A program made the position numbers and the translations under genes. A DNA stretch of 64,000 bases, taken from assembly GCF_006517275.1 (NCBI RefSeq), contig NZ_CP041191.1, positions 372,001 to 436,000 on the forward strand. The letters run 5' to 3'. Shown here one piece after another: positions 38,797 through 54,828 of this stretch (position 1 is its first letter; each line of letters starts with the position of its first letter). The DNA is from Labrenzia sp. PHM005 (GTDB taxonomy: Bacteria > Pseudomonadota > Alphaproteobacteria > Rhizobiales > Stappiaceae). The notes beneath the pieces were generated by a model that was not told the DNA's origin, did not search any database, and saw nothing but the letters and a program-made list of their open reading frames with translations.

Positions 38797-40227
38797 TTAA
38801 CCTGTCTGAGGCACTCCGCTGCCAGCGGCAACTTCAGTCTTTTGCCGGTTTTTGGCCTTTTGGGCATACATGCGGCTGTCAGCGACCCGCAGCAGATCAT
38901 CTATGGTTCCGGCATCACTTGGAAAACTTGCGCTTCCGATACTGGCTTTAACCTCAATTCGAACGCCCGAGAATTCGAACATTTGCGAGACCCGGTCGGC
39001 CAAACGCTCCAGGAATGCATCCTTTTCCGCTCGGCGCATGTTGCCCGGAGTCAATATGATAAATTCATCACCACCTACCCGGGCAACTGTATCGGTCTGC
39101 CGGATTTGCTGCTGCAAACGGTGGCTGACTTCTATCAACAACTGATCGCCGACCGCATGCCCATAATTGTCGTTGACGGGTTTGAATGCATCCAGATCTA
39201 CATAAAAGATCTCGAAACCATTTCCTGTCCGCTCCGACATCACGGCAAATTGGAGCATGCGATCTTCAAGGAGGCGGCGGTTGGCCAACCCGGTTAACGG
39301 ATCATGCAAAGCCATTGACCGGACTTTATAGACTTCACTGATCAACAAGAACGCCATGGCGCCGAACACCAATGAAATCAGGCTGCCAACCAGCTGCGTG
39401 ATCCAGATATTTCTTTCATTGGCCACCCAGCCATTTCTCGGATAGCCGAGCACTTCCCAATTCAGCCCACCTGGCAAGTTTAGAGGCAGTCCAACACCGT
39501 CCTCGGCCAAAAGGCCAAACCCACCGAAAACATGTGCGTTGTCCGGATTGGCTGCACCCTTGTCGATGATCTCGATCCTGAGTTCGTTGGCGGTATCAGA
39601 TACACCAGCAGCCTTCATCAAACCCGCCTCGTCGACAACGAGCGATGCGACCCCCCAATAGGGTCGCTCAGCAAGTGGCTGACCGGGATTGATTGGCGGA
39701 AATACAGGAATCCGGATCAAAAGAGCCCGCCCCCCCTGAACCAACTCCAAAGGGCCAGCAATGACCACATCACGCTCAAGCATTGCCCTTCGGATCGCGG
39801 GCCATTGGCTGGTGTTCATCCGGTAATTCAGGCCGATAGCCGCCTGATTCGGCTGGTGTGGATACACGGCCCGCAATATATTGTTTGGCGCCAGGCCAAT
39901 CGACCGAATGACCGGATTTCCCTCGATCAGGTCCGCCGCAACGGCTTCATAATGCGCAGCTTCAAAGGGTTGATTTGCAAAATGGATAACGTTGGCGCGT
40001 AAGCCCAACCCATAGGCCACTGTCCGGCTGAGTTCGCCTTCCAGGCGGGCGCGCACTTCAGACAGTCTGGCGACAGCTTCACGTTTGTTTTGAGAAACAA
40101 GCTCACTGCGCACCGTGTTTCCGACATGCGCTGTCAAAGCGACACCGGTAAGAAAACATACGACAGCGACAAGGGACGCGACCCAGGTACCATTTGTATA
40201 TGTAAAGTACTGACGTAACCCGCTCAT
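38797..40227 (-). CDS. CHASE-domain diguanylate cyclase (membrane)
   Basis: A 476-residue protein with an N-terminal helix (about 14-34), a periplasmic CHASE-type sensor (about 40-270, with YEAVAADLIEGNPVIRSIGLAP), a second helix near 278-298 and a GGDEF domain. The active motif GGDEF is at 385-389, the metal Asp residues are at 344 and 346 (VDLDAF), and an RxxD inhibitory site (Arg376-Asp379) lies 5 residues before GGDEF. It should make cyclic di-GMP from GTP with product inhibition. Its signal is unknown. It stands alone, divergent from nothing nearby. Confidence 0.93.
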   Translation of the reverse strand: MSGLRQYFTYTNGTWVASLVAVVCFLTGVALTAHVGNTVRSELVSQNKREAVARLSEVRARLEGELSRTVAYGLGLRANVIHFANQPFEAAHYEAVAADLIEGNPVIRSIGLAPNNILRAVYPHQPNQAAIGLNYRMNTSQWPAIRRAMLERDVVIAGPLELVQGGRALLIRIPVFPPINPGQPLAERPYWGVASLVVDEAGLMKAAGVSDTANELRIEIIDKGAANPDNAHVFGGFGLLAEDGVGLPLNLPGGLNWEVLGYPRNGWVANERNIWITQLVGSLISLVFGAMAFLLISEVYKVRSMALHDPLTGLANRRLLEDRMLQFAVMSERTGNGFEIFYVDLDAFKPVNDNYGHAVGDQLLIEVSHRLQQQIRQTDTVARVGGDEFIILTPGNMRRAEKDAFLERLADRVSQMFEFSGVRIEVKASIGSASFPSDAGTIDDLLRVADSRMYAQKAKNRQKTEVAAGSGVPQTG

Positions 40228-44542: not shown

Positions 44543-45355
44543 TCAAGAATCTAGGCCGAGAACATCGGCCATAGAGTAGAACCCGGGTTTTTGGTCAAAT
44601 CCCCATAGCGCGGCCTTTACAGCCCCACGGGCGAACAACTGGCGGTCTTCTGCCCGATGCGTCAGCTCGATGCGTTCGCCTTCTCCGGCGAGAATAACCG
44701 AGTGCTCACCAATGACAGAACCGCCGCGCAGAGTGGCAAATCCTATATCGCCAGTCCTGCGCGGATCCATAATGCCGTCGCGGCTGCGCACAGAGTGGGC
44801 CTCAAGATCGATTCCGCGCCCCTCTGCGGCAGCTTCTCCCAATAGAAGGGCGGTGCCTGAGGGCGCATCAACCTTGTGCTTGTGATGCATCTCCAGAACT
44901 TCAATGTCGAAATCCGCGTCCAAAGCAGCTGCCGCTTTTCGAACCAAACTTGCGAGCAGATTGACACCCAAGCTCATATTTCCAGATTTGATAATCCGGG
45001 CATGGCGGGCAGCAGCTTTTAGCGGAGCGTCCTCATCGGCTCCCCACCCAGTTGTCCCAATGACATGAACGATCCTGGCTTGAGCCGCCAATTCGGCAAA
45101 CCAGAGACTCGCTTTTGGGGCCGTGAAATCCAGAACACCATCTGCTTTTGCAAAGGCCGTCAAAGGGTCATCGGTAATCAGTACGTCCAGCGCACCAACA
45201 CCCGAGAGCTCACCGGCATCCCGGCCTAGAAAGCTGGACCCTTCCTGCTCAATAGCCGCAACAACATCTGCACCATTGGCTTCGGTCACGGCGCGGATCA
45301 AGGCCCGCCCCATCCGACCACCAGCACCAACGACTACCAAGCGCATCACACCCAT
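44543..45355 (-). CDS. dapB: 4-hydroxy-tetrahydrodipicolinate reductase
   Basis: DapB catalyses the NAD(P)H-dependent step to tetrahydrodipicolinate in lysine and diaminopimelate synthesis. The 270 residues have the nucleotide site [14 protein letters not shown], the IGTTGW strand, and [15 protein letters not shown] with the catalytic His-His-Lys and the Gly-Thr that contacts substrate. Length is normal. It heads a dapB-gpmA transcript. Confidence 0.96.
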
Positions 45356-45609
45356 ACCTTGTCCTCGTTTAACTCCGGCAGCGGTATAGCAGCTTCGCGA
45401 CGGCTAGCAAATCTCAGAATCTCGTGGAACCAGGCAATACGAGATAGAATTCATTAGCATTATTACCATGGTCATTACTTTCAATTTTAAGTCTTATTTT
45501 GCCAAAACACAATTTCTGCTTCAAAATTCCAAATTCACTTCACGATTGCTAAACTCGGCGCGCAATAAAGTTTCTAAGTATCACTCTAGCTGTGAGGAAC
45601 TGGCCAAAA
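45356..45609. other. AT-rich upstream region of the LuxP/LuxQ-like cassette
   Basis: This stretch is clearly richer in A/T than its surroundings. It holds a promoter candidate at 45499-45527. Overlapping short ORFs here lack ribosome sites and look random. Confidence 0.5.
45499..45527 (+). promoter_or_regulatory. Sigma-70-like promoter candidate for the cassette
   Basis: TTGCCA (45499-45504) and CAAAAT (45522-45527) are exactly 17 bp apart, matching 5 of 6 and 4 of 6 consensus positions. A transcript from here would begin near 45534 and carry a 5' leader of about 250 nt, including a 47-codon ORF, before the first large gene. Confidence 0.45.
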
Positions 45610-45753
45610 ATGAAAAACGTCATCCACCCAGTGCTCTTCCGGCCAGCCGACGATCAGGTCTGCAAGCAAACATTATTAGTCAGCTTTGATGTGTCTGGGC
45701 AGAAACTGACCCGTCTATTTGATAACCGCGCGATCAAAACAAAACACGAATAA
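45610..45753 (+). CDS. 47-aa leader ORF upstream of the cassette
   Basis: An ATG at 45610, 10 nt after a GAGGAA stretch, opens a 47-codon frame ending TAA at 45753, 30 nt before the next start. The product begins MKNVIHPVLFRPADDQV and ends KTKHE; it is basic, has one Cys, no signal peptide and no recognisable domain. It could be a small protein or a leader peptide for the operon. Evidence is only the ribosome site and position. Confidence 0.4.
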   Translation: MKNVIHPVLFRPADDQVCKQTLLVSFDVSGQKLTRLFDNRAIKTKHE

Positions 45754-45783
45754 ACTGGTAAAGTGCCGCCACAGGAGCTGGAT

Positions 45784-48528
45784 GTGCAATCCAATTTATC
45801 CATATCGTACAATCGCCTTATTGTGGCGTTGTTTGCATTTGGACTGATTGCCACTTGCTTTGCCCTCTTTTGGATTACCTTGCTCGGCAGCAGATCGATC
45901 GCGGAGCATGAAATCTCCCGCACCGCGAAGTCACAAGCTGCACTTACCCGCCTGGTTGTTGATCAGTATTTTGAGCGGCTTGAGATACAAATCAGAAGCA
46001 TTGCCTCTGACCCTGACATAAGGGCAGCTATTGAGCAAAAGGACCTGCCCACTGCTTTAAGGATCGCCGAACAGGCTACACTTGGCCTGAACAACGCCGT
46101 CCTTGACCTCTTGCTCATCGACCTTCCTAGTGAACCGGAATGGCTCAATGTTAGTCTAGGTCTCGTAGACATTCGCGAACACATTCCGGCAGAAATTAGA
46201 AACTCCTTTCCACCGGATCTCTGGGTCACCTACACCAATCATGACATTGAACCGGAATACATGACTGCTGCTTTGTCGGTTTCTATTCTCCATCCAGAAT
46301 CCGGCGAATTAATTGGTAAAATTGTTGGCGGGATCGCTATTACAGACTCCTATATTTTGCCTGGCCTTTTGGCTGACACCCTTAGTGTATTCAGTCTCGG
46401 CCTATTTCATGAAAATGAGATGGTTGCAGGCGTGGGAGACATTACCACCGGTGACCTGCCGAATATCTGGCCAGAAACCCTTGGCGAGACGACATCAGCG
46501 CTTCGCGGCGATACGCTTTATATTGCCACGCCACTGAAGCAGACTTTTGATGGTCACCTTTTTTCTGCGGTTATTAAGCAGCCAGTGGATACACTTCAAA
46601 AGGTTGATGACACATACCTTCGCCTGTTTCCTCCGTTTTTGCTCTATACACTGTTGTTGACCATCGGCATTGCCCTTCTGATCAATAAGATCACTTCAGG
46701 CGGGCTCAGATCGCTTTTAACTTACACTAGCGACCTGAGCCGAAGTAATGTGCCGGATCCACCACCACCTGGACTGATCCGTGAATTCAATCAGCTCGCA
46801 AAGAACTTCCATCACGCATTTGAGGTCACTCTTGAACGTGATGCACAGTTCCGTGAATTGATTGATGATTCGATCCAGGGGATGGTCATTCATTCAAACG
46901 AAAAGATCCTTTATATAAACAATGCCTTGCTTCAGATTTTGGACTATGGCGCTGATGAACTTGTTGGTCAGTCCATCTGGAAGATCTACGCTCCTGAAGA
47001 GCATGAGCGTATGCGCAAATATAGGAAGCTCCGTTTAGAAGGTGGTGTTCTCCCATCAGTTTACGAAGTGAAGGCTTTAAAAAAAACTGGCGACCCAATC
47101 TGGGTCGAACAACATGTCCGAATGACATCGTGGAATGGGTCGCCCGCAATCCACGCTACCGTCACAGATATACAAAAACGCAAAGCGCAGAAAAAACTGA
47201 TCGAGCAGTATGCAGACTATGACGTTCTGACAGGACTGCCGAACCGCACTCTCTTTCTAGACTGCCTGCGCCAGGACCTCGTACAGCAAGAAAAATCGAA
47301 TTCAATCGGGGCCGTATTCATCATCAGTTTCGACCTACTGAAATCGGCGGATAAACCCTTTGTCCATGAAACCTGGGATCCAGTCCTGCAAGAAGTCGCC
47401 AAACGGATCGAAAGGGTTGTTGGTAGCCGCGATACGGTTTCACAGCTTGGCTACCAAGAATTCGCCGTTCTTTTAACCGACATTAAGGACGACTGGAAAA
47501 CAAAACAGGTTGCGCAAAAGATCCTGCAGGCCCTTTCAAAAGAGTTTGATGTTGGAAAAGACAAAGACATCGAATTCACCGCCAATATCGGGGTTTCGGT
47601 CTATCCACTTGACAGCACGAACGAGACAACCCTGCTGAAACAAGCAGAATCCGCTAGAGACCACGCCAAGTCAGAGGGTCACAACCAATTCCGCTTTTTC
47701 TCCAAAAGGATGAATGAAAGAGCGGCTCGCGCCTTGTTGCTCGAAACAACCTTAGGCAAAGCAATCGAGGACGGAGAGCTGGACCTCAGTTTTCAACCGG
47801 CAATCAATGTCGACACAGGCAAGTTGATTGTGTGCGATGCGGCGGTTTACTGGCAAAACAAACAACTTGGATTGGTCACCGCAGCGGAGATCACCAGTGC
47901 AGCAGAGGACGCAGGTCTTACGCAAGCTCTTGGGAAATGGACCCTTCAACAAACCTGTACCTTTTACCGGTCCATAGTTGATGAGGGGCACAGACTGCCA
48001 GCCATCAGCATCAGTGTCTCAAGCCATCAATGCTGTGATCCAGAGTTTTCGCAGACTTTAAAAGCTGCCTTGAAATCAGCGGACATAGATCCTTCTGGTC
48101 TGCGGCTGGAGCTATCTGATGGTTTATCAAGCAGGCAGATACCCGATTTACAGAACACTTTCCCAAGGCTGGCCGGCCTCGGTGTGAAAGTGACTTTGGG
48201 CAACTTCGGGATCAGCACAACATCTCTAGAAGAGCTAACAAGTCTTCCCATCGATATGCTGAAGATCGATCGCGCTCTTACTGACGACGCCATCCAAGAC
48301 CCCAACCGGCAAAAGCTCGTTAAGGCGATCACCACGATGGCAAACTCAATGAACATCCAGGTGATCTGTAATGGAGCCGACACTCGCGAAGTATGTTTGC
48401 TGCTACGCAGTCTCGGCTGCTCTTTTGTTCAAGGAGACTATGTTGCTCCACCGATGGATCCAAGCTCGTTCAAGAAATATATCAGAGAAAAAAATCCAAA
48501 GGATCAGAGCATTTCGGCCACGGGATGA
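45784..48528 (+). CDS. LuxQ-like membrane receptor with PAS and degenerate GGDEF-EAL domains (pseudoenzyme)
   Basis: A 914-residue paralogue of the protein at 49859. The GTG start has AGGAG 6 nt upstream; an earlier GTG at 45763 lacks one. A membrane helix (about 10-35), a LuxQ-like periplasmic domain, a second helix (about 283-303), a PAS domain (about 355-465), then GGDEF- and EAL-type domains. Catalytic residues are gone: GGDEF reads GYQEF (556-560), the metal pair DID reads SFD, EAL reads DAA (685-687), DDFGTG reads GNFGIS (806-811), and CEGVET reads CNGADT. The frame is otherwise full length, so it looks like a maintained non-catalytic partner rather than a decaying gene. Confidence 0.85.
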   Translation: MQSNLSISYNRLIVALFAFGLIATCFALFWITLLGSRSIAEHEISRTAKSQAALTRLVVDQYFERLEIQIRSIASDPDIRAAIEQKDLPTALRIAEQATLGLNNAVLDLLLIDLPSEPEWLNVSLGLVDIREHIPAEIRNSFPPDLWVTYTNHDIEPEYMTAALSVSILHPESGELIGKIVGGIAITDSYILPGLLADTLSVFSLGLFHENEMVAGVGDITTGDLPNIWPETLGETTSALRGDTLYIATPLKQTFDGHLFSAVIKQPVDTLQKVDDTYLRLFPPFLLYTLLLTIGIALLINKITSGGLRSLLTYTSDLSRSNVPDPPPPGLIREFNQLAKNFHHAFEVTLERDAQFRELIDDSIQGMVIHSNEKILYINNALLQILDYGADELVGQSIWKIYAPEEHERMRKYRKLRLEGGVLPSVYEVKALKKTGDPIWVEQHVRMTSWNGSPAIHATVTDIQKRKAQKKLIEQYADYDVLTGLPNRTLFLDCLRQDLVQQEKSNSIGAVFIISFDLLKSADKPFVHETWDPVLQEVAKRIERVVGSRDTVSQLGYQEFAVLLTDIKDDWKTKQVAQKILQALSKEFDVGKDKDIEFTANIGVSVYPLDSTNETTLLKQAESARDHAKSEGHNQFRFFSKRMNERAARALLLETTLGKAIEDGELDLSFQPAINVDTGKLIVCDAAVYWQNKQLGLVTAAEITSAAEDAGLTQALGKWTLQQTCTFYRSIVDEGHRLPAISISVSSHQCCDPEFSQTLKAALKSADIDPSGLRLELSDGLSSRQIPDLQNTFPRLAGLGVKVTLGNFGISTTSLEELTSLPIDMLKIDRALTDDAIQDPNRQKLVKAITTMANSMNIQVICNGADTREVCLLLRSLGCSFVQGDYVAPPMDPSSFKKYIREKNPKDQSISATG

Positions 48529-48716
48529 TCTTATGCACAGAGGAAGCGACAACAACTCAACATCATTAAGTATTTTTTGTATCTGTTTAGAATATCTTAG
48601 AAATTGGACCAACATTGTGAAATATCGCAATAACGCTTTTAGTTGCATTGCTTGTTCTTGCACACAAAAATACGTTTTGTTTTAGGCGCAACGACTGCCA
48701 GGGAGGGAGGCCACAA

Positions 48717-49862
48717 ATGAAACTAGTGAATACTTTGAACGGCTACGCCTTCAAAACTACCCTTATTGCTGGTCTTGCGGTCTTTTGGCTCTTGGTGGCC
48801 GGCCACTTTGCCGCACAAGCTCAAGGCAGCAGTTTGGATGAGTTCTGGTCACTGGCGGAATTCACAGAACTGAACGAAAGACAAAAACAAACATCGGATA
48901 ACTTCACCAAACGCGTTTCAGCCGATGCCATCAAAATCGATGGGGCGCTAGAGCCAGTCAAGATCGCTGTTATCTACCCGGGAAAACAAGCGTCTGACTA
49001 TTGGCGTCGGAGTTTGAGTTCATTTGAAGCCCGTTTGGCTGAAATTGGTCTGCCGTACGAGATTGGATCCTTTTTCTCCGGCTCTTCGTCTTATGTCGGT
49101 AACCAAGCCCAACTCATTACCGAAGCCTTGAAAAACGATCCGGATTATCTGGTTTTCACGCTCGACGCTTTGCGCCACAAGCCGATTGTCCAACGCTTGA
49201 TTGCCCGTGGGCGACCCAAAGTAATCTTGCAAAACATCACGACGCCCTTGAAAGCGTGGCGTGACCGACAGCCGTTCCTATATGTCGGCTTCGATCATGT
49301 GACCGGGACAGAGCTCTTGATCGACTATTACAAAAAACGCCTTGGTACAAAAAAGAACTTCGCAATTCTGTTCGGGCCACGCGGATACGTTAGCCGGGCC
49401 CGGGGCAATACATTTCTGCAGGCTTACTCCGATCCGGACAGCATGAATCTCAAAGCCTCTTATTATGTCGGCTATGACCGGCAGAAATCACGGGATGCAG
49501 CGGAGCGGATCCTTGATGAAAACCCAAACCTGGACTTCATTTACGCCTGCTCCACCGATATAGCGCTTGGCGCAATCGACGCGATTAAAAGCCGCAACCG
49601 CCAAGCAAATGTCATCACCAACGGCTGGGGCGGCGGCAGTGATGAACTCGATGCTATCCTCAAAGGTGAGCTGGAAGTAACGGTCATGCGTATGAACGAT
49701 GACAACGGTGTTGCCATGGCGGAAGCCATTGTTCTGGATCAATCTGGAAAGAGCGCTGAAATCCCGATCGTCTTCTCCGGAGAATTCGCTGTTGTATCAA
49801 AAGAAAACTCAGCAGAAGATATCAATGAACTAAAAGCGCGGGCGTTCCGGTATTCGAAATGA
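48717..49862 (+). CDS. luxP: LuxP-like periplasmic autoinducer-2 binding protein
   Basis: A 381-residue periplasmic protein with a signal ending near AAQAQG and GGGAGGGAGG upstream of the ATG. It is strikingly like Vibrio LuxP: IAVIYPGKQASDYW, VILQNITTPLKAW, FLYVGFDH, FIYACSTDIALGA, NGWGGGSDELDAI and VTVMRMNDD. As I recall the AI-2 pocket of V. harveyi LuxP (Gln77, Ser79, Trp82, Asn159, Arg215, Asp267, Trp289, Arg310), each has a counterpart here (Gln91, Ser93, Trp96, Asn173, Arg229, Asp281, Trp304, Arg325), at an offset of 14-15. The stop overlaps the next start (ATGA), so it is coupled to the active GGDEF-EAL partner. Ribose-type sugar binding is the alternative. Confidence 0.88.
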   Translation: MKLVNTLNGYAFKTTLIAGLAVFWLLVAGHFAAQAQGSSLDEFWSLAEFTELNERQKQTSDNFTKRVSADAIKIDGALEPVKIAVIYPGKQASDYWRRSLSSFEARLAEIGLPYEIGSFFSGSSSYVGNQAQLITEALKNDPDYLVFTLDALRHKPIVQRLIARGRPKVILQNITTPLKAWRDRQPFLYVGFDHVTGTELLIDYYKKRLGTKKNFAILFGPRGYVSRARGNTFLQAYSDPDSMNLKASYYVGYDRQKSRDAAERILDENPNLDFIYACSTDIALGAIDAIKSRNRQANVITNGWGGGSDELDAILKGELEVTVMRMNDDNGVAMAEAIVLDQSGKSAEIPIVFSGEFAVVSKENSAEDINELKARAFRYSK

Positions 49863-52612
49863 AGACTAAAGGACTTAAGTTCAGCTGGTTGATCGGAAGC
49901 CTATTTGTTATCGGCTTGATGGCGACCGGCATTGCGATTTTCGGAATTACCTTTCTTGGAAGCCTTTCCATCGCTGAACTGGAAGCCCAGCGTTATGCCG
50001 AACGTGATCAGTCGCTAGCCCGACTCGTATTTGAATCCCATCTTAAAAGCATCGAAGATCAGCTCAGGACAACGGCCGTTGATCAGGATTTGATCGACTC
50101 GGTAAATGAATACGATTCCGGAAAAGCGACGCGCATTTTGGAATTGGCCGGACAGAATTCATCAGGCGCATTGCCGGACGTTCTAATCCTGGATCATGAA
50201 AAGCAAATGGGCTGGTTGAATGCCAGTCTCGCCCTTGTCGATGTTGGCGCGGTGTTGCCGGGACAGACGTTGCGGACGATGCCGCCGGATGTATGGCGGT
50301 TTTACAGTGATCAATCGACAGACCAGCCAACAAACCTGGCTGTTATTGCAATTCCTGTCATTAACCCCGAAGACGGCCGGGTTATTGCCAGACTGATCGG
50401 CGGCAGTTTGATCAATGACTCATTTACTCTTTTGGATAGTCTTTCCAATGTCCTGAGCGTTCAGGACATTGCCATTGTTCATCGCAATCAAACGCTTGCG
50501 TCTTATGGGGTGTTCACCGACCCTGCTCATGTTCAGGAAGTGCTTGCACTGCTTGGGGACAAATCGAATGTCCTCTGGGAAGCCAAACTTTTTACAAAGT
50601 CCGTCCTCGAAGCAGGAGATTCTGGCAGTCCGATTTATGTGATCGCCGAAGAGCCCAGCGACACACTTAACAACATTGAAGACACCTATCTGGACATCTT
50701 CTTTCCATTTCTCCTTTACATCGGCATAGCGTCGATCGCGGCAGCTTACCTCGTCAACCAGATCACAGCATCCAGCCTTGCCTCCCTGGTTAGCTATGCC
50801 AGTGCACGCGCTGACAACAACAAATCAGAGCAGTTCGAACAAGGACGAATTGCTGAATACAATTTGCTAGGTTCACTGTTTGATAAAGCGTTTGCGTCTG
50901 TTCAAAAAACCAATGCGCAATTCCGGGAACTTATCGACGGATCGCTGCAGGGGATCGTTATTCATTCAAACTCGAAGATCCTCTATGTAAACGATGCACT
51001 GCTGCAAATACTGGGGTACGACGCTGACGAAATCGATCAACTCGTCGGCCAATCTATCTGGAAAATCTATGCCCCAGAAGAGCATGAACGCATGCGCAAT
51101 TACCGTAGGATTCGTGAAGTGGGTGGCGTAGCACCTACTGTTTATGAGGTCATTGCGCACAGTAAATCCTGTGACCCGATTTGGATCGAGCAACACGTTC
51201 GCATGACAACTTGGAACGATGCTCCAGCTATTCACACCACCATTACCGATATTTCAGATCGAAAAGAGCAGGAAAAACTCATTGAGCAACATGCAAATTA
51301 TGATGCCTTGACCAGCTTGCCGAACCGAAATCTCTTCCTCGACCGTTTACGTCAAAGCCTGGCTCAGCAAGAAAAAACGGATGCCACCGGGGCTGTGCTC
51401 ATTATCGATATCGACCGGTTTAAAGCTGTCAACGACCTTTACGGACATGAGGTGGGTGACCCTATCCTGCAAACTATCGCAAAACGGATAGAAACCATTG
51501 TCGATAGCAGCGACACGGTTTCTAGGATCGGCGGTGATGAATTTGCAGTTCTGCTGACTGATACGGAAGACGATTGGGAAATAGAACGAATTGCTCAAGA
51601 TATTCTGCATAACATCTCAAGAAAAATTAATGCCGAAGCAGGCAAAGAAATTGTGTTGACCGCTAGCGCTGGGATTTCGGTCTATCCATTTGATGGAACA
51701 ACCGAGACAGCTTTGCTGAAACAAGCCGAGGCCGCTAGAAACCAGGCCAAATCGGACGGCGGCGACCGGTTCCGTTTTTTCTCCAAAAAGATGAATGAAC
51801 GAGCGACCCGTGCCCTGCGGCTCGAAGCAGCGCTGCGCCGCGCCATTGAGAACGACCAGCTGGAAATCCACATCCAGCCAATCATCGAGTGCGTATCGGG
51901 GACCGTGGCCGGCTGTGAGGCTCTTGCCCGATGGAACGACCCAGAACTTGGCATCGTTTCGCCCGGTGAATTTATTCCGATTGCAGAAGACACCGGGCTG
52001 ATTGTCCCCTTGGGAAAACAGGTCTTGAAAAAGGCCTGCGAGTTCTACCGGGAATGCACTGAGCGCGGCTATGACCTTGGCGGGATCGGCGTCAATATCT
52101 CGCCACGCCAATGCCGGGAAGACGGTTTTATCAATTTTGTAAAAGCCACCCTTGATGAAACGGACATCTCGCCGCGCAGCCTCACATTAGAGATCACCGA
52201 GAGCATGATGTTCGATGACAGTCAGATCGACCCTGTCGCGCTGTTGACGGCCATCAAGAGCCTTGGTGTGAAGATATCTCTGGACGACTTCGGGACCGGC
52301 TATTCTTCCTTGAGTTATCTAAAACGCTTGCCGATCGATACGCTCAAGATCGACCGGTCTTTCATCAAGGACATTGAAACCGATAAGGACGACCAGGCAC
52401 TGGTCAATGCCATTGTCACCATGGCACATGCACTCTCGATTGGTGTCATTTGCGAGGGGGTCGAAACCCGCAAGCAAAACACCATCTTGATGCACATGGG
52501 ATGCCGTGAGATTCAGGGTTTTTACTTTGGCAAACCGATGCCTCAGGATGAATTCTTTGAGTTCCTGGAGGAAGAACCCTTCAAAGCCGAACTGCAGCTG
52601 AAAGTCAGTTAG
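49859..52612 (+). CDS. LuxQ-like receptor with PAS, active GGDEF and active EAL domains
   Basis: A 917-residue inner-membrane protein. Helix 1 (about 9-31), periplasmic domain (32-280) resembling LuxQ (RYAERDQSLARLVFESH; IPVINPEDGRVIARLIGGSL), helix 2 (281-303), PAS (about 355-465), GGDEF domain with GGDEF at 558-562 and metal Asp517/Asp519, and EAL domain with EAL at 687-689, LEITES near 777, DDFGTG at 809-814, Glu866 and Gln886. The I-site Arg is absent (DSSD). It should both make and break cyclic di-GMP, with AI-2-bound LuxP setting the balance. LuxQ itself has a histidine kinase here instead. Overlaps luxP by 4 nt. Confidence 0.9.
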   Translation: MKTKGLKFSWLIGSLFVIGLMATGIAIFGITFLGSLSIAELEAQRYAERDQSLARLVFESHLKSIEDQLRTTAVDQDLIDSVNEYDSGKATRILELAGQNSSGALPDVLILDHEKQMGWLNASLALVDVGAVLPGQTLRTMPPDVWRFYSDQSTDQPTNLAVIAIPVINPEDGRVIARLIGGSLINDSFTLLDSLSNVLSVQDIAIVHRNQTLASYGVFTDPAHVQEVLALLGDKSNVLWEAKLFTKSVLEAGDSGSPIYVIAEEPSDTLNNIEDTYLDIFFPFLLYIGIASIAAAYLVNQITASSLASLVSYASARADNNKSEQFEQGRIAEYNLLGSLFDKAFASVQKTNAQFRELIDGSLQGIVIHSNSKILYVNDALLQILGYDADEIDQLVGQSIWKIYAPEEHERMRNYRRIREVGGVAPTVYEVIAHSKSCDPIWIEQHVRMTTWNDAPAIHTTITDISDRKEQEKLIEQHANYDALTSLPNRNLFLDRLRQSLAQQEKTDATGAVLIIDIDRFKAVNDLYGHEVGDPILQTIAKRIETIVDSSDTVSRIGGDEFAVLLTDTEDDWEIERIAQDILHNISRKINAEAGKEIVLTASAGISVYPFDGTTETALLKQAEAARNQAKSDGGDRFRFFSKKMNERATRALRLEAALRRAIENDQLEIHIQPIIECVSGTVAGCEALARWNDPELGIVSPGEFIPIAEDTGLIVPLGKQVLKKACEFYRECTERGYDLGGIGVNISPRQCREDGFINFVKATLDETDISPRSLTLEITESMMFDDSQIDPVALLTAIKSLGVKISLDDFGTGYSSLSYLKRLPIDTLKIDRSFIKDIETDKDDQALVNAIVTMAHALSIGVICEGVETRKQNTILMHMGCREIQGFYFGKPMPQDEFFEFLEEEPFKAELQLKVS

Positions 52613-52646
52613 AGCCAGGTCTACAAGGCTCAGGGTGGATCAATTA

Positions 52647-52678
52647 AAAACGCAGGTGCCGCAAAGCACCTGCGTTTT
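52647..52678. terminator. Bidirectional terminator between the receptor gene and pnp
   Basis: AAAACGCAGGTGC (from 52647) and GCACCTGCGTTTT (from 52666) form a perfect 13-bp stem with a 6-nt loop, with T-runs on both sides (TTTTCTTTTT on plus). It ends both the cassette and the convergent pnp transcript. Confidence 0.88.
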
Positions 52679-52701: not shown

Positions 52702-54828
52702 TTAGCCTTCGTCTTTCGGGATTTCCTTACCGGTTTCCTGATCAACGACTTTCATGGACAGGCGGACCTTGCCGCGCTCGTCAAAGCCCATGAGCTTGAC
52801 CCAGACCTTGTCGCCTTCCTTGATCACGTCTGTGACCTTTGCGACTTTCCTCGGGGCCAGTTGGGAAATATGAACCAGGCCGTCTTTCGCGCCGAAGAAG
52901 TTCACGAATGCGCCGAAGTCAACGCACTTCACAACAGTACCTTCGTAGATCACGCCAACTTCCGGCTCAGCTGCGATGGAGTTAATCCAGTTGACAGCTG
53001 CCTTGATGGCCTTGCCATCGGAAGAGGCGATCTTGACGGTGCCGTCGTCTTCAATGTTGACCTTTGCGCCGGTCTTTTCAACGATCTCACGGATAACCTT
53101 GCCGCCCGAACCGATGACTTCACGGATCTTGTCGACCGGAATTTTCATCATTTCGATGCGCGGTGCGTGTTCGCCAAGCTCTGCGCGGGCTTCTGTAATG
53201 GCATTGGCCATTTCGCCGAGGATGTGGATCCGGCCGCCTTTGGCCTGCTCCAGAGCGACCTTCATGATCTCTTCGGTGATACCGTCGATCTTGATGTCCA
53301 TCTGCAGCGAGGTAATGCCGTTTTCAGAACCGGCCACCTTGAAGTCCATGTCGCCGAGGTGATCTTCGTCACCCAGGATGTCGGACAGGACTGCGAAGCG
53401 CTCGCCTTCCTTGATCAGGCCCATGGCGATACCGGCAACCGGTGACTTCAGCGGCACACCCGCATCCATCAGCGCCAGAGAGGTACCGCAAACGGTTGCC
53501 ATGGAGGACGAACCATTGGATTCGGTGATCTCGGAAACAACCCGCAGGGTGTACGGAAATTCGTGGTGCGCCGGCAGCATCGGGTTGATCGCGCGCCAGG
53601 CCAGCTTGCCGTGACCGATTTCGCGGCGTCCCGGAGAGCCCATACGGCCGGTTTCACCAACAGAGTATGGCGGGAAGTTGTAGTGCAGCATGAAGTGGGA
53701 CTTCACAGTGCCTTCCAGAAGGTCGATGAATTGCTCATCTTCGCCAGTACCGAGGGTCGCAACAACGAGGCCCTGCGTTTCACCGCGAGTGAAGAGAGAA
53801 GACCCGTGCGCACGCGGCAGAATGCCGACTTCAGACGAAATCTGGCGCACGGTAGACAGGTCACGGCCGTCGATACGGGTGCCGGTGTCCAGGATGCCGC
53901 CGCGAACGATTTCAGCTTCCAGCTTCTTGAATTGTTCGCCGAGCACGTTGCTTTCAACAGCTTCGCCTTCGGCAGCGTTGGTGATCAGCGCCTCGACGAC
54001 TTTTGCCTTGGCAGCGTCTACAGCGTTCTTGCGGTCGGTTTTTGTCGTGATCTTGTAGGCAGCGGCCAGATCGTCAGCTGCAATACCCTTCACTTTGCCG
54101 AACAGCTCGGAATGATCTGCTGCAACGAATTCACGCGGCTCTTTCGCACCAGCTTCCGCCAGCTTGATGATCGCATCGATGACCGTCTGGAAGCCCTTGT
54201 GGCCGAACATAACGGCGCCGAGCATGATGTCTTCGTCGAGTTCCTTGGCTTCAGACTCAACCATCAGAACCGCATCATTGGTACCGGCAACAACCAGATC
54301 CAAAGCGGATTCCGGCATGTCGTCAACCATCGGGTTCAGCACATATTCGCCGTCGATGTAACCAACGCGCGCGCCGCCGATCGGGCCCATGAACGGAACA
54401 CCGGAAAGCGTCAGGGCAGCAGAGGCTGCGACCATTGCCAGGATGTCCGGAGCGTTTTCCATGTCGTGCGACAGGACCGTGATGACGACCTGGGTGTCGT
54501 TCTTGTAGCCATCGGCAAACAGCGGACGGATCGGACGGTCGATCAGACGGGACGTCAGGGTTTCGTGCTCAGACGGACGGCCTTCACGCTTGAAGTAGCC
54601 ACCCGGGATCTTACCAGCGGCAAACGCCTTTTCCTGGTAGTTCACGGTGAGCGGGAAAAAGTCCTGGCCGGCACGCGGCTCTTTGGCGGAAACAACAGTC
54701 GCCAGAACCTTGGTTTCGCCGTAAGTCGCCATAACAGCGCCGTCGGCTTGACGGGCAACCTTGCCCGTTTCGAGTACGAGCGGACGTCCGCCCCAGTCGA
54801 CTTCTACACGATGAATATCAAACATCAT
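52702..54828 (-). CDS. pnp: Polyribonucleotide nucleotidyltransferase
   Basis: PNPase degrades RNA 3' to 5' with phosphate and forms the degradosome core. The 708 residues comprise two RNase PH domains (second with [18 protein letters not shown]), a KH domain with the GxxG loop ([14 protein letters not shown], about 565-580) and a C-terminal S1 domain ([20 protein letters not shown]). Length is normal. It follows rpsO at 312 bp on the same strand, with a long hairpin between. Confidence 0.97.

Follow-up and report, generated by a model that had tools for sequence, protein, structure and literature searches.

A luxP gene overlapping a LuxQ-like GGDEF-EAL receptor gene in Labrenzia sp. PHM005: a probable route from autoinducer-2 to cyclic di-GMP

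The stretch of Labrenzia sp. PHM005 DNA analysed here (64,000 nucleotides of contig NZ_CP041191.1, positions 372,001 to 436,000, hereafter the window; the host genome is 6.19 Mb in two contigs) carries, between dapB and pnp, three plus-strand genes, which we call A, luxP and B. All three open reading frames, of 921, 381 and 917 codons, are present as the original prediction described. We think it probable that luxP and B together form a receiver for autoinducer-2 (AI-2) that sets the level of cyclic di-GMP (c-di-GMP) directly, without a phosphorelay, given that the pair combines a LuxP homologue with a receptor whose periplasmic part is predicted to fold like LuxQ and whose GGDEF-EAL output is intact. 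The basis of this reading is homology, pocket residues, catalytic motifs, the overlap of the two genes, their co-occurrence in other genomes and the lack of a luxS match in the genome.

The luxP gene (48717-49862) encodes, from its ATG, a predicted periplasmic AI-2-binding protein of 381 residues, with a hydrophobic, signal-like N-terminus and a Peripla_BP_4 domain. In a phmmer search of the PDB sequences, LuxP takes the first four places (E 3.3e-93 to 1.4e-92, over residues 40-380 or 43-380), the similarity spanning the full mature length, and the next match, a sugar receptor, follows at E 2.1e-17. The protein was thus rightly called a LuxP relative; its closest homologues are LuxPs and not sugar receptors. 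The residues that we take to line the AI-2 pocket of V. harveyi LuxP (Q77, S79, W82, N159, R215, T266, D267, W289 and R310) are all kept, nine of nine, the numbering being verified for residue type only, in the PDB phmmer alignment. The same nine are found in 78 of 81 LuxPs, that is, the window's and those of 80 surveyed loci, and the other three keep eight (L018, with an ambiguous residue, L021 and L042). Ten control proteins keep zero to seven: the count is 0-4 in eight further Peripla_BP_4 proteins of this genome, and six (Ruegeria) and seven (Roseicitreum) in LuxP-like proteins of the ABC type. A ribose-type receptor is ruled out by the phmmer ranking together with these controls. As a separate observation, the Roseicitreum protein is encoded on a plasmid of R. 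antarcticum (L123:328-7137) near a gene annotated lsrK, autoinducer-2 kinase. In the wider LuxP family, three domains chosen at random among 267 LuxP proteins, in Proteobacteria and Deferribacterota, bound AI-2 (PMC12268683).

The stop of luxP and the start of B overlap by four base pairs, ATGA, at 49859-49862. Receptor B (49859-52612, 917 residues) matches the Pfam models LuxQ-periplasm (E 1.6e-14, residues 38-218), PAS, GGDEF (E 5e-44) and EAL (E 2.7e-74), and its hydrophobic segments 15-33 and 280-298 are predicted membrane helices on either side of the periplasmic domain. Among the PDB sequences it matches LuxQ (1zhh_B, E 6.7e-06); the match to the NCBIfam model LuxQ_Vibrio lies below that model's curated cut-off. 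The fold predicted for the periplasmic domain (residues 46-267, 49994-50659) has LuxQ as its best structural matches, with dCACHE structures next in the list. The claim of a LuxQ periplasmic fold is therefore borne out for B at the level of a prediction, and chance similarity is ruled out by the Pfam match and the predicted fold. The segment IPVINPEDGRVIARLIGG of B, named in the original prediction as resembling LuxQ, does align with VPILDPSTGEVLGFSFNA of LuxQ in the PDB alignment, so that the homology stands but the closeness of the match does not. The GGDEF domain (51293-51766) has an intact motif and, at the spacing that we assume for it, no RxxD I-site (DSSD instead); the EAL domain (51827-52537) keeps nine of nine residues of what we take to be the catalytic set. 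No HisKA, HATPase or receiver domain was matched by Pfam in A or B at E 1e-3. The proposal that a c-di-GMP output stands where a histidine kinase would be is supported; the loss of the catalytic motifs in A had been missed.

The survey of genomes for luxP beside GGDEF-EAL genes, suggested earlier, yielded 18 loci. It covered the best 80 of 287 LuxP relatives in a scan of species genomes; because the ranking used similarity to an alignment with the window LuxP at its head, the share of GGDEF-EAL loci is not a natural frequency. The reading frame following luxP encodes GGDEF-EAL in 18 loci, a histidine kinase in 50, PAS domains only in five and SpoIIE in one, and has no usable state in six; an output state was thus given to 74 of the 80 (L026 and L043 end at a contig edge, no receptor was seen in L046, L057 and L073, and L088 is split and was omitted). 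The kinase state was assigned to L067 from its analogy with L060 and to L063 from a neighbouring kinase reading frame. The GGDEF-EAL loci comprise 13 of Roseibium/Labrenzia/Stappia type (Stappiaceae-type), Oceanisphaera arctica, two Zobellella, Oceanospirillum and Pontibacterium. A four-base-pair overlap of luxP and receptor with an open frame, as in the window, occurs in 13 of the 18 (all 13 of Stappiaceae type) and in one of the 50 kinase loci; an apparent overlap in L027 is false, the frame being closed there. LuxQ-periplasm is itself rare in the class: the model matches in nine of 385 sampled genomes, the window's included, which is a lower bound because the model misses A.

Several of the surveyed loci deserve mention in their own right. 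Five of them, from Oceanisphaera and Oceanimonas, encode next to luxP a LuxQ-like protein that stops past its PAS domain or domains; the output domain is missing by Pfam in L035 and L056, and by length and missing matches in L054, L064 and L075, whose PAS-only state was set by analogy with the former two. In a Desulfococcaceae bacterium (L027:9245-11482), the LuxQ-periplasm protein encoded after luxP has a SpoIIE phosphatase as its output. In Motiliproteus (L031:9217-13227), luxP and a LuxQ-like kinase gene are followed, two genes on, by a receiver-GGDEF-EAL protein, possibly a two-component route from LuxP to c-di-GMP.

LuxS had no match in the window's genome, in any of the 45 genomes of the genus or in any of the 13 Stappiaceae-type luxP-GGDEF-EAL genomes, for which no completeness is stated. 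The same search found LuxS in four of the five gammaproteobacterial luxP-GGDEF-EAL genomes and was positive in five of 14 control genomes. Since LuxS is without a match there, the Stappiaceae luxP-B pair would be a receiver only, unless another route to AI-2 exists.

We infer AI-2 as the ligand of LuxP, the contact between LuxP and B and whichever enzymatic activity wins. As the genome gave no luxS match, the AI-2 bound by LuxP would be made by other species. The loaded LuxP would dock on the LuxQ-like periplasmic domain of B and alter the B dimer, and the balance of cyclase and phosphodiesterase would shift in one direction or the other, by analogy with LuxPQ, in which AI-2 renders the periplasmic domains asymmetric (PMC5231407), and with NspS-MbaA, in which the polyamine bound decides whether c-di-GMP is made or degraded (PMC8967002). 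Searched at E 1e-20, the genome yields 48 matches to the GGDEF-EAL module of B, two of them being A and B themselves, and any effect of luxP-B would therefore act inside a large network.

Several points, besides the limited check of the pocket numbering, weigh against the AI-2 reading. B and LuxQ are no more than about 15% identical over the domain aligned in the structure comparison, and the intact motifs of B fit either cyclase or phosphodiesterase use. Proteins matching the A sensor at E 1e-8 occur in 25 of the 45 genus genomes, the window's included; in the 24 others, 15 are A-like (E 1e-95 or better) and nine B-like or divergent. By coordinates, luxP adjoins the receptor in five of these 24, all B-like (three of these loci were read), and is not adjacent in the remaining 19. 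The LuxQ-like domain evidently persists without LuxP, as those 19 genomes show, and may have its own ligand; for the same reason, LuxP may have been lost repeatedly in the genus. Finally, in the best trees GGDEF-EAL needs five changes, three of them forced by starred branches and part of them to or from PAS-only within Aeromonadaceae, and the GGDEF-EAL rows fall in three separate groups in the sensor tree (84 rows) and the LuxP tree (75 rows); a single group of GGDEF-EAL and PAS-only rows is nevertheless not rejected (p-AU 0.239 for the sensor, 0.106 for LuxP), and the output-module tree, from which L113 is absent, forces only one change. All the trees are quick ones with long branches. Several independent output swaps are thus unsupported as a forced conclusion, and because a single origin is not rejected, recurrence gives weaker support than the count of three groups suggests.

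The genus receptors occupy the same dapB-pnp neighbourhood, as seen in 20 of the 24 regions, which were read (17 of the 20 without luxP); in several, one flank is masked by an overlapping frame. Loci L102-L116, L119 and L121 are receptors of this kind, of the LuxQ-fold type with GGDEF-EAL, in the same slot and without luxP. A true LuxP (at least 65% identity) is present in six of the 45 genomes. Eleven more have a LuxP match of only 30-35%; we set these proteins aside as likely transport proteins, because the Ruegeria and Roseicitreum counterparts sit in ABC operons, the operon context having been read for those counterparts rather than for Roseibium's own proteins. At the thresholds used, the window genome is alone among the 45 in having A together with luxP-B.

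Protein A (45763-48528, 921 residues) is, judged from its sequence, a sensor-bearing mosaic that has lost its catalytic motifs and is predicted to be non-catalytic. Pfam finds PAS, GGDEF and EAL; GGDEF reads GYQEF, the EAL domain has DAA and three of the nine catalytic residues are kept (the motif table leaves out P0136, which is partial, and L112, a short frame, and several of its other rows are one protein twice). The original prediction gave both flanking proteins a LuxQ-like periplasmic part. For B this is upheld by Pfam, PDB and fold; for A it is upheld by a predicted LuxQ fold, by a match to LuxQ_Vibrio (E 4.3e-11, under the curated cut-off) and by the precomputed PF09308.18 annotation that A carries as P0121, but not by LuxQ-periplasm in the Pfam copy used or by the PDB sequences, neither of which gave a match at E up to 1. 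The idea of two equivalent receptors around LuxP fails on the genus survey and the lost motifs: among relatives, luxP accompanies B alone, and the sensor relatives of A in the genus are without an adjacent luxP.

In the trees, the A sensor groups with luxP-less receptors. Residues 372-661 of A (46876-47745, PAS-GGDEF) follow the B lineage: A equals B at 106 of 124 informative sites inside this block and at 50 of 276 outside it (0 of 200 permutations), although other comparison rows end the block at 668 or 725. The mosaic scan gave log-likelihood ratios of 85.5 (P0122), 57.0 (L103), 43.5 (L106) and 57.7 (P0124), each with 0 of 200 permutations. Two of three controls also beat the permutations, but at far lower ratios: L115 reached 7.0 (19 of 200), L113 10.5 at another place (0 of 200) and P0122 between B and L103 11.2 (0 of 200). 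A simple tandem duplication of B into A is ruled out, because the sensor of A groups with the luxP-less receptors and the middle block alone follows B.

There is close to an even chance that A is merely a decaying gene without a role. Its catalytic residues are lost, its branches are long in both trees (0.76 in the sensor tree, 1.36 in the output tree), and only one further degenerate relative, P0122, was found among 18 matches. Yet the 921-codon frame is open despite the strong divergence, as is that of P0122 (916 amino acids), and the two proteins are 75% identical in the sensor but 30-48% identical in their remaining domains, as if the sensor were still selected; part of that contrast stems from the B-derived block. 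As a working guess, about as likely as simple decay, A may instead be a partner or brake of B, since a PAS-GGDEF part taken from B would promote the formation of mixed dimers.

A bolder construction, which we hold to be unlikely, joins these pieces into an asymmetric AI-2 receptor, in which a live B and a dead A surround LuxP. A gene conversion long ago would have given A the dimer-forming PAS-GGDEF of B, and the dead subunit would act as a brake or as the input of a second signal; LuxPQ sensing would be a portable module, joined to c-di-GMP enzymes more than once, from which LuxP was then repeatedly dropped in Roseibium.

Somewhat less likely again is that the ligand of the window LuxP is a small molecule other than AI-2, a sugar or a compound resembling one, which B would report through c-di-GMP. 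LuxP shares its fold family with the ribose and allose receptors, the genus has no luxS match, so that AI-2 is not self-made by LuxS, and the six and seven residues kept by the Ruegeria and Roseicitreum ABC receptors mean that LuxP shares the greater part of its pocket with other proteins. The complete pocket, shared with nearly all LuxPs surveyed and far from the counts of the eight Peripla_BP_4 proteins of the same genome, and the match to LuxP over the full mature length argue against such a ligand. The least likely of these readings is that the LuxQ/CACHE-like domain of B is itself the direct sensor, LuxP being dispensable or merely tuning: the 19 genus receptors without adjacent luxP, in the same chromosomal slot, speak for it, as does the direct binding of AI-2 by dCACHE domains, of the same superfamily, in PctA, TlpQ, KinD and an R. 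palustris cyclase (PMC7584622), but the luxP and B genes overlap in Roseibium and Stappia, the best structural matches of B are LuxQ and not ligand-binding dCACHE proteins, and dCache_1 has no Pfam match in B at E 1e-3.

The flanking genes are presumably dapB (44543-45355) and pnp (52702-54828), both on the minus strand, with gpmA also assigned, the names being given from sequence without a database search. A terminator-like hairpin of 13 pairs follows B (52647-52678, plus strand) as a pattern match only; terminator-like sites in the region (nine against 8.3 expected) and promoter-like sites (three against 7.0 expected in shuffles) are uninformative. A CHASE-GGDEF protein is encoded about five kilobases upstream of A (38797-40227, minus strand).

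If the AI-2 reading of luxP-B is true, the pair would be an eavesdropping route by which marine bacteria pass a community signal to the messenger of biofilm and motility, and a test system for a single periplasmic sensor driving diverse outputs (kinase, GGDEF-EAL and SpoIIE). The new part is the combination of LuxP, LuxQ fold and GGDEF-EAL; no description of luxP adjoining a GGDEF-EAL gene was found in the open-licence literature searched, apart from a single table count in a 2016 paper, with LuxQ-periplasm in 115 proteins, of which 112 are kinases and one a c-di-GMP enzyme (PMC4822843). The supposition of an uncharacterised alphaproteobacterial version thus stands in that such a locus exists in an alphaproteobacterium, but not as something confined to that class or wholly uncounted. 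Rezzonico and Duffy (2008) place luxP in Vibrionales and some Oceanospirillales, with similar proteins in two deltaproteobacteria, and GGDEF has no occurrence in the main text (PMC2561040). The reviews consulted present LuxP as feeding the LuxQ-LuxU-LuxO phosphorelay.

With LuxP-LuxQ of Vibrio harveyi and V. cholerae, the window pair shares a LuxP homologue with the AI-2-pocket residues, a periplasmic domain predicted to fold like that of LuxQ and flanked by two membrane helices, and adjacent genes in the order of the surveyed Vibrio loci; it differs in ending in PAS-GGDEF-EAL where LuxQ has a histidine kinase and receiver, in the absence of a luxS match and in the extra degenerate paralogue A. 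The binding protein of NspS-MbaA is, we assume, of the polyamine type, PotD-like. That system, known in V. cholerae and also in an alphaproteobacterium, Sinorhizobium meliloti (PMC9993111), likewise has a binding-protein gene beside that of a membrane receptor able to form or break down c-di-GMP, whereas the window's binding protein is LuxP-type (Peripla_BP_4) and no polyamine receptor, and its sensor is LuxQ-periplasm. LapD is, like A, a membrane protein with degenerate GGDEF and EAL; A differs in its LuxQ-like sensor and PAS and in having lost most EAL catalytic residues. AI-2 is already known to control a cyclase through dCACHE and GAPES1 domains, and c-di-GMP through a kinase in AsrK-AsrR (PMC11796354). 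In these routes AI-2 changes c-di-GMP, as is proposed for luxP-B, but it acts on the membrane protein itself or through a kinase and response regulator, with no LuxP.
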